Origin: a virus
IMG/VR virus record: IMGVR_UViG_3300046167_000209
Coordinates: 1-34,892 of that record
DNA length: 34,892 nucleotides
Reading direction: 5' to 3' (one strand)
The notes below the pieces were generated by a model. That model ran no database searches and was not told the DNA's origin. It saw only the letters and a program-made list of their open reading frames with translations. Numbering within the stretch: the stretch's first letter is position 1; the number at the start of each line of letters is the position of its first letter. The position numbers and the translations under genes were made by a program. This document shows positions 18,049-22,329 of the stretch, one piece after another.

Positions 18049-18395
18049 TACAACCAGATAACCGGAGTAGTTCCACGGGTATCTACGTGAACAAATGTAT
18101 CAGCAATGCCTATACCAGTAAAACCAAGGTTTAACGCATTAGCTGCAATAGTGTAGCGGTGGGCGGCATTTGTTATTTTTATGTCAGCCGCAATCCCCTG
18201 TGCATGTGTTCCCGGCACTTCCTTTTTTCTTTCAATAGGGTGCTGAGTTGGATGACGGTAACCACTCGTCACCTCAAAGGGGAAGCCACACGCACCCCGC
18301 AATTGGTCTAACTTCTCTAGGAACTCTTGTTCCATATTGTTAGTACCAGTGACCTGACAGTCGAACTCTTCTCTAGTAAAGTGCTTAAGAGTCAT
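18045..18395 (-). CDS. Peptidoglycan peptidase of the M15 type (endolysin)
   Basis: 116 residues, the usual size of the short M15_3 family. SGYRHP (44-49), the GTHAQGIAADI zinc motif and FVHVD give predicted zinc ligands His64, Asp71 and His103. It would cut peptide cross-links in peptidoglycan after the holin opens the membrane, or act as a virion lysin. There is no signal peptide, so release depends on the holin at 6393-6791. It overlaps both neighbours (11 and 4 bases), placing a lysis enzyme between the two terminase-type genes. Confidence 0.88.
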   Translation of the reverse strand: MTLKHFTREEFDCQVTGTNNMEQEFLEKLDQLRGACGFPFEVTSGYRHPTQHPIERKKEVPGTHAQGIAADIKITNAAHRYTIAANALNLGFTGIGIADTFVHVDTRGTTPVIWLY

Positions 18396-18771
18396 CTTCT
18401 ACTACTTCTCCTTCGATGATTTCAGGAGTGCCCACGTCAACAGCACCAACACCAGAAATATTAATTTGTATAGCGTTTCGACCAGCATCTTTTACTACGT
18501 CCTTCTCAAAGGCACCCACTGGTAGTATACGGTCCATCACAAGTTTCCAAGCAGCAGCCTGATTCTTATGGTCATGGTCCAAAGCAGCGTCAAATATTGT
18601 CTCTAGGACCTTACGTGACTTAGGACTAGCCAACATCCTAGCCTTGTACTCATTGATTATCGCTGCGTCACCCTTTGGTCGGCCTACTACACCCTTGTTA
18701 CCGGGCTTTACAGCGGCTACTTCTGACTTCCGGGGTCTGCCACGACCTCTTTTTTTAACAACGTCGGTCAT
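18385..18771 (-). CDS. Probable terminase small subunit with AT-hook-like N-terminus
   Basis: 128 residues. KKRGRGRPRK (about 6-15) is a textbook AT-hook (GRP core flanked by basic residues), and a second weaker one is VVGRPKG. A helical middle (AAIINEYKARMLASPKSRKV, then LETIFDAALDHDHKNQAAAW) and an acidic C-terminus follow (GEVVEDD). First gene of the late block, near TerL, small, and with a DNA-binding N-terminus: all fit a small terminase that recognises packaging DNA. No family signature is certain, so this rests on position and composition. Confidence 0.65.
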   Translation of the reverse strand: MTDVVKKRGRGRPRKSEVAAVKPGNKGVVGRPKGDAAIINEYKARMLASPKSRKVLETIFDAALDHDHKNQAAAWKLVMDRILPVGAFEKDVVKDAGRNAIQINISGVGAVDVGTPEIIEGEVVEDDS

Positions 18772-18799: not shown

Positions 18800-18828
18800 A
18801 GTATACCATAAGTTTACACAAAAGTCAA
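18800..18828 (-). promoter_or_regulatory. Strong sigma70 promoter of the late block
   Basis: Minus-strand TTGACT (18823-18828), 17-bp spacer, TATACT (18800-18805), with an extended TGG before the -10. Each hexamer is 5/6. Predicted transcription start is about 18793, roughly 20 bases before the first late gene. The TATGGTATA core is shared with the capsid promoter. Confidence 0.85.
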
Positions 18829-19045: not shown

Positions 19046-19062
19046 TTGGCACGGGTCTTGCA
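19046..19062 (+). promoter_or_regulatory. Sigma54-type -24/-12 element, copy 1
   Basis: TTGGCACGGGTCTTGCA. GG at 19048-19049 and GC at 19060-19061 are separated by exactly 10 bases, matching the RpoN consensus TGGCACG-N4-TTGCW at every defined position. It faces the early genes. A start near 19073 is predicted if it is active. Confidence 0.7.
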
Positions 19063-19071
19063 TGGGGTAAC

Positions 19072-19088
19072 TTGGCACAGGATTTGCA
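19072..19088 (+). promoter_or_regulatory. Sigma54-type -24/-12 element, copy 2
   Basis: TTGGCACAGGATTTGCA. GG at 19074-19075 and GC at 19086-19087 with exact N10 spacing; one difference from consensus (A instead of G after TGGCAC). It lies 26 bp downstream of copy 1 in the same orientation. Confidence 0.7.
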
Positions 19089-19148
19089 TGAGTTGACAAG
19101 TGTGTGGGCTTATGTTGGTCCCTCTGGCTACATCACGAGCTGATAAGG

Positions 19149-19165
19149 TTGGCACGGTTATTGCT
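19149..19165 (+). promoter_or_regulatory. Sigma54-type -24/-12 element, copy 3
   Basis: TTGGCACGGTTATTGCT. GG at 19151-19152 and GC at 19163-19164, N10 spacing, full consensus match. It is the copy nearest the early genes, with a predicted start at about 19175. An ACACGCG direct repeat follows at 19182-19196. Confidence 0.7.
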
Positions 19166-19312
19166 ACGCGAGCTATTTATTACACGCGCACACGCGATTA
19201 GCATGGAACAACACTGGCAGTCAATAGTCTATTTATGTGAAATATTTACCCTTGTTTCTCAACTGGGTTTCTGGCTTACTACACACATGGCGAGACGGGG
19301 ACCCAAGCCACC

Positions 19313-19331
19313 CCAAATGAGAATCATTATC
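19313..19331. promoter_or_regulatory. Fur-box-like palindrome over the first early start codon
   Basis: CCAAATGAGAATCATTATC matches the 19-bp Fur consensus GATAATGATAATCATTATC at 15 positions and ends immediately before ATG 19332. One such match in a genome this size is only mildly unlikely by chance. Confidence 0.35.
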
Positions 19332-19655
19332 ATGACTAAGCAAGTTAACTACGGTCTCCACGAGACACTTGAGAACAGCCACCGCACACTGTCTACCGCT
19401 GTTGAGATGTACGCCATTTACTATAGCGACTGGTCAGAGATTCTAGAGGAGCTGTCACAGTACTACGCCAGCGACGAATGGATCAACGGTGACTCGTTCA
19501 GCGACAAGCACAGGGAGTTGATCGAGCGACGCAACATGATTATCGGTCAGGTTCAAGAGATCGGCGCGGAGTTGCGATCAGTAGGTCTAGACGTTGACCT
19601 GTGCGAATGGGCAACACGGGACGATATGTTCGACGACGTAGAAACAGCGGCATAA
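19332..19655 (+). CDS. First early gene, unrecognised acidic helical protein
   Basis: 107 residues from ATG 19332: acidic, mostly helical (VNYGLHETLENSHRTLSTAV, ELIERRNMIIGQVQEIGAEL), C-terminus DDMFDDVETAA. The frame is open farther upstream with ATGs at 19317, 19287 and 19203. None has a good ribosome site, and the 19203 start would add a hydrophobic segment followed by MARRGPKP. I prefer 19332 because the protein-like helical region begins there, but the start is uncertain. As the first gene after the sigma54-type elements it could be a host-takeover protein. No family is recognised. Confidence 0.6.
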   Translation: MTKQVNYGLHETLENSHRTLSTAVEMYAIYYSDWSEILEELSQYYASDEWINGDSFSDKHRELIERRNMIIGQVQEIGAELRSVGLDVDLCEWATRDDMFDDVETAA

Positions 19656-22172: not shown

Positions 22173-22321
22173 TGACGGAACAGCAGTTAGAGCAGTGGAT
22201 ACGGGACAACCCGTGGAAAGCCAATGTGATCTGTCCTGCTGGGGGTATAGGGTTTATGATGTTCATTATGTACACTTGTGTGCAGATCATAGATTCTTTT
22301 TTGACAGGTAAATTCATTTAG
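22169..22321 (+). CDS. 50-residue membrane micro-protein
   Basis: ATG 22169 overlaps the previous stop (ATGA). The first 19 residues are charged (MMTEQQLEQWIRDNPWKAN) and residues 21-45 are hydrophobic with a Gly-Gly turn (CPAGGIGFMMFIMYTCVQII), then a short tail. It contains the -35 region of the replication promoter inside its last codons. Role unknown. Confidence 0.6.
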   Translation: MMTEQQLEQWIRDNPWKANVICPAGGIGFMMFIMYTCVQIIDSFLTGKFI

Positions 22322-22329
22322 TGTATACT
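22301..22329 (+). promoter_or_regulatory. Consensus sigma70 promoter of the replication genes
   Basis: TTGACA (22301-22306), 17-bp spacer, TATACT (22324-22329). Predicted start is about 22336, giving a leader of about 70 bases before the ssDNA-binding gene. It lets the replication genes be transcribed apart from the small early genes. Confidence 0.9.

Follow-up and report, generated by a model that had tools for sequence, protein, structure and literature searches.

Arrays of putative sigma54 recognition elements in the early control region of a podovirus-like marine phage and its relatives, and their interchange with DnaA-box arrays

The control region of a podovirus-like marine phage carries three sites that fit the specificity of sigma54 (RpoN), and comparison with other phages indicates that such sites are strongly selected with their exact spacing and that they swap or mix with DnaA boxes at the same position. 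We consider it slightly favoured (probability of about 0.55) that the array is a group of high-affinity sites for the host sigma54, which would serve in cis as a protein-DNA platform for the early control region. An earlier note on this DNA had proposed three tandem sigma54-dependent early promoters; a phage-specific array for host sigma54 that is exchanged for DnaA-box arrays, as the sequence comparisons suggest, would be a stronger finding than that.

The sigma54 elements and other elements of the window

The window, i.e. the whole stretch of DNA that was analysed, is a 34.9-kb viral record (IMG/VR; 34,892 bases), in which no end repeats were found. Leftward it bears the late genes (terS, terL, portal, capsid) and rightward the early genes and T7-like replication genes, and no phage RNA polymerase is present among the genes annotated in it. 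The features of concern are the following.

18385..18771, minus strand: terS-like gene (128 aa), which opens the leftward late operon and was the anchor for comparing relatives
18800..18828, minus strand: late (terS) sigma70 promoter TTGACTTTTGTGTAAACTTATGGTATACT, TTGACT-N17-TATACT, score 15.6, divergent from the array
19046..19062, plus strand: predicted sigma54 element 1, TTGGCACGGGTCTTGCA, TTGGCAC-gggtc-TTGCA, PSSM score 18.5, rank 3 when compared with 50 E. coli ChIP sites, kept in relatives
19072..19088, plus strand: predicted sigma54 element 2, TTGGCACAGGATTTGCA, TTGGCAC-aggat-TTGCA, 26 bp downstream of element 1, PSSM score 17.6, rank 11
19093..19121, plus strand: TTGACAAGTGTGTGG-N-CTTATGTTGGTCC element, with a -35-like hexamer TTGACA at 19093 and no canonical -10, conserved
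19149..19165, plus strand: predicted sigma54 element 3, TTGGCACGGTTATTGCT, TTGGCAC-ggtta-TTGCT, PSSM score 19.5, rank 2
19318..19332, no strand assigned: inverted repeat TGAGAATCATTATCA, similar to a Fur box, across the start of the first early gene
19332..19655, plus strand: first early gene (107 aa), ATG start at 19332
22301..22329, plus strand: strong sigma70 promoter TTGACA-N17-TATACT, before the ssb, primase and polymerase genes

As the earlier note had described, the three elements lie on the plus strand, with three different spacers and the exact GG-N10-GC spacing in every case; together with the TGGCAY..TTGCW core that all of them contain, this spacing is what distinguishes a sigma54 recognition element. 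No other exact match occurs in the 34,892 bases, where about 0.01 would be expected from base composition. A scoring matrix was built from 50 intergenic sigma54 motifs of E. coli determined by ChIP-seq (PMC4591121, Table 1). Scanning the window with this matrix placed the elements second, third and eleventh against those 50 sites, within the range of experimentally mapped sigma54 sites, and the next-best score in the window was 13.8, so that the claim that no comparable element exists elsewhere in it was borne out. The free positions of the phage arrays also track the preferences of the E. coli ChIP sites (r=0.76, reached in 0 of 5000 permutations), a value that is somewhat generous because two of these positions are partly fixed by the search pattern. 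The exact spacing, the agreement with the ChIP data and the conservation of cores with variable spacers in relatives (see below) strongly support the prediction that the three elements are sigma54 (RpoN) recognition elements. In the core TTGGCAY-R-N4-TTGCW, the exact spacing and the free-position preferences they are like bacterial -24/-12 promoters such as those of E. coli glnA, pspA and hypA; unlike these, they occur in a phage as three copies within 120 bp, and the arrays of other phages ignore orientation and stand upstream of sigma70 promoters.

That the early genes lack a good sigma70 promoter, as likewise pointed out previously, was corroborated between terS and the first early gene, where the best plus-strand score, 8.6, is roughly what shuffled sequence gives, versus 15.6 for the late promoter, whose TTGACT-N17-TATACT is unchanged in the 13 family members scanned (13/13). 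Sigma70-type promoters do occur elsewhere in this genome, as indicated by the strong promoter at 22301..22329. The TTGACA hexamer at 19093, which sits between elements 2 and 3, carries a conserved AGTGTGTGG..TTATGTTGGWCC tail, and the element to which it belongs is common to relatives with sigma54 arrays and relatives with DnaA arrays. This early-side TTGACAAGTGTGTGGGCTTATGTTGGTCC (19093-19121) resembles the late terS promoter but for its lack of a -10, and the AGTGTGWG..ACCC part of it is still present in distant family members.

Distribution of the arrays and interchange with DnaA boxes

When 2.9 million viral contigs were searched for pairs of exact elements separated by 1-30 bp, such tandem pairs turned up in at least 120 of them, compared with 3 contigs when each element contained one extra base, which indicates that the exact sigma54 spacing is selected. 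Exact triples were found in 30 viral contigs and only once among 84,980 genomes of bacteria and archaea (257 Gb), in a chance-like case located within a 943-aa ORF of Paenibacillus. Since the arrays recur in phages and are virtually absent from bacterial genomes, their use is probably phage-specific, and not that of three ordinary promoters. Among the array contigs listed, about half belong to the family of the window or have genes in common with it, and the remaining ones are other phages with G+C contents of 0.29-0.64. In 50 array-bearing records nearly all elements are confined to one or a few regions, and a reversed control pattern gave two matches in total in these same records. The 5-bp spacers differ in 185 of 230 distinct element pairs, so the spacer is not copied along with the element, and simple tandem duplication, already doubted in the earlier note, was rejected. 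The most regular array seen, in L277 (8144-8423), is composed of eleven sigma54 elements, nine of them exact and two degenerate, at intervals of 26-27 bp, directly upstream of TTGACA-N16/17-TATAAT. Phage early control is usually described through sigma70 promoters, and a search of the open-access literature yielded no account of phage sigma54 arrays.

Relatives of the window phage (80) were collected by a primase search free of the element pattern. No close relative is cultured, identity to cultured phages being at most about 42% for the terminase and at most 48% for the primase; sigma54 elements are absent from seven distant cultured or reference phages, and no relative of the window primase was found in the bacterial genomes searched for host identification. 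Close relatives have the elements in the corresponding position, in the gap from terS to the early genes; the cores are identical, the 5-bp spacers differ, and the distances vary, with values of 26, 36-37, 56-57, 67 and 77-79 bp. In two relatives five to six copies point forward and three are reversed, and in some relatives reversed copies stand back to back only 2-5 bp apart. The family set comprises 98 distinct control regions (terL 68-100% identical where measured). At least two sigma54 elements are present in 86 of them, 27 of which have DnaA boxes too, while 11 have DnaA boxes only and one has neither type of array; these proportions are biased, since most of the regions were retrieved through the pattern itself, and the same alternatives appear in the pattern-free primase sample. 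The great majority of the family elements are directed towards the early genes (317 of 376, with 59 opposite), 52 regions being forward-only, 34 mixed and none reverse-only.

The DnaA-type sister phages, with terminases up to 98% identical and without sigma54 elements, have 6-9 boxes of the TTATCCACA type in the same slot between terS and the early genes, with the same flanks, on both strands and often 11 bp apart; no DnaA box was found in the window. Such arrays, mostly of TTATCCACA, are located at L051:6018-6202, L056:5839-6009 and L043:1919-2071, and in other sisters. Another sister phage (L077:5000-5140) lacks both sigma54 elements and a DnaA array at this place. It has instead 12-bp repeats with CACGAG at their end, which may be yet another type of array.

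Spacing and surroundings of the arrays

Distances between elements on the same strand have an abrupt lower limit of 25-26 bp and fall into clusters around 26-29, 36-38, 46-48, 54, 65-66 and 74-75 bp, about one helical turn apart; the clustering and the minimum distance suggest proteins placed side by side. A clean helical phasing of 10.5 bp was considered and not adopted, as periods of 9.4 bp (family) and 12 bp (other phages) fit at least as well.

In unrelated phages, sigma70 scores of at least 9 in the outward direction were obtained for 81 of 126 arrays, compared with 35 for shuffled flanks. Relative to the sigma70 promoter, the elements point in the same direction in 28 arrays, in the opposite one in 33 and in both in 27. 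This position upstream of sigma70 promoters irrespective of orientation differs from the behaviour of -24/-12 promoters and argues for cis-acting binding sites. In L094 and L222, each of several early operons is preceded by two or three elements directed away from the genes, and near-consensus sigma70 promoters stand between array and gene. The successive early operons of L094 (1757-6045) are also each preceded by two palindromes CTGCCAAAATGGCAG, in a repeated promoter cassette made up of the CTGCCAAAATGGCAG pair, a sigma70 promoter and, in most cases, two reversed sigma54 elements.

Of the other regulator motifs sought near the arrays, only three were clearly enriched: DnaA boxes (78 vs 5-8 in random windows), IHF-like sites (34 vs 9-12) and a TGCCA-N3-TGGCA palindrome (12 regions).

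Possible roles of the array

The protein that would bind the array is likely to be the sigma54 (RpoN) of the host: the motif is constant across unrelated phages, and no match to a sigma54 DNA-binding domain was obtained in the 50 array-bearing records or in the window. By analogy, the DnaA boxes would point to the host DnaA. A sigma54 activator domain was found above the cut-off in none of the 50 array-bearing viral records, a set that does not include the window, with one match below threshold. It is very improbable that a different phage or host DNA-binding protein happens to recognise the same sequence; copies standing back to back 2-5 bp apart would be crowded for a full holoenzyme, as such a protein would explain, but core, spacing and free positions all coincide with ChIP-mapped sigma54 sites, and both the constancy of the motif across unrelated phages and the lack of a sigma54-like DNA-binding domain in the 50 array phages speak against it.

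Sigma54 has been described to bind mostly as transcriptionally inactive holoenzyme and to be able to repress overlapping promoters (PMC4591121), and RpoN sites may act positively or negatively (PMC7657599). The silent sites, at which the holoenzyme waits in a closed complex, have been proposed to be a store of RpoN-polymerase (PMC4591121; PMC7657599). This silent binding provides a plausible basis for a platform. The host, assumed to have rpoN, would supply the protein that binds the three 17-bp elements, most likely as RNA polymerase holoenzyme parked in a silent closed complex; the array, located between the divergent early and late operons where sister phages carry DnaA boxes, would act in cis on the early control region, and bound RpoN could help, delay or directly drive early transcription. 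The phage arrays would resemble the silent or intragenic sites of E. coli (PMC4591121) and Yersinia (PMC7657599) in being of high affinity, on both strands and not tied to transcription, although those bacterial sites are scattered in a chromosome and the phage sites are clustered in viral control regions. They are also like DnaA-box arrays and origin iterons, in that repeated sites which a conserved host protein would bind are grouped together, in the slot taken by DnaA boxes in sisters, and differ from them in sequence, in their variable spacers and in the absence of a DnaA box from the window. Counting against a platform are that the window array has no adjacent sigma70 promoter except the odd TTGACA at 19093, that the late promoter is about 220 bp away, and that the helical periodicity is not clean. 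For unrelated phages, the chances seem evenly balanced that arrays of RpoN sites, alone or mixed with DnaA boxes, are built as a phage-specific and largely orientation-independent early control element, so that silent complexes of the host RNA polymerase would repeatedly be put to a use which bacteria themselves do not show.

The earlier interpretation was sustained in part, namely as to sigma54 recognition; three tandem early promoters, where host E-sigma54 bound at one or more elements would be opened by a host enhancer-binding protein (e.g. PspF or an NtrC-like activator), are only possible. The -24/-12 elements are perfect and all of them face the early genes, the window and its close relatives have no competing sigma70 promoter for the first early operon, and no family region is reverse-only, so that promoter use is possible in the clade of the window; transcription dependent on an activator could then start from element 3 near 19176, as deduced from its -12 at 19164. 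The forward bias in the family (317 to 59) would suit a promoter, but the forward copies could also be mere tandem duplicates. Several points speak against promoters: orientation is random relative to the sigma70 promoters of other phages, reversed copies are found 2-5 bp apart, sister phages with terminases up to 98% identical lack the elements and have DnaA boxes instead, strong sigma70 promoters occur 80-190 bp downstream in many family members, and no activator site was identified, there being no consensus for one unless the activator is known. Promoter function seems rather unlikely, though it is the foremost of the alternatives. The other suggestion of the earlier note, iteron-like sites, comes closer in so far as it is an array of binding sites, but iterons consisting of the whole 17-mers are excluded, because the spacers vary within and between genomes and only the sigma54 core is kept. 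It is accordingly improbable that the region is a replication origin, which could also use DnaA, in spite of the DnaA boxes, 11 bp apart, that sister phages carry there, the mixed arrays, the IHF-like sites and an AT-rich GTGTGAATATTTAC nearby: one motif shared by unrelated phages with G+C of 0.29-0.64 cannot follow a phage-specific initiator, several phages, such as L094 and L222, have many distinct arrays that each precede a different operon, and the window lacks a DnaA box. An equally doubtful role would be that of a sponge, titrating host RpoN (DnaA in sister phages) as the phage DNA multiplies. Multiple high-affinity sites, tolerance of either orientation and absence from bacterial genomes would suit it, but a location upstream of early promoters and preferred spacings would not be needed, and three sites per genome are few early in infection.

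Sigma54 is the only sigma factor with which the polymerase stays silent until an activator arrives. If such arrays do bind it in phages, early phage regulation could be tied to the nitrogen, envelope-stress or motility state of the host or, alternatively, silent polymerase could have a structural role. That DnaA boxes can stand in for the sigma54 sites hints at a strategy common among phages, in which host DNA-binding proteins of wide conservation are docked beside early promoters.

Downstream of the array, the first early gene (19332..19655) has no PHROGs match, and the inverted repeat overlapping its start codon, TGAGAATCATTATCA (19318-19332), differs from the 7-1-7 Fur box by one change. 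The Fur-like repeats found near arrays come from 8 regions only; repeats resembling TGAGAATCATTATCA are present in close relatives, and several lie near the arrays of L222.
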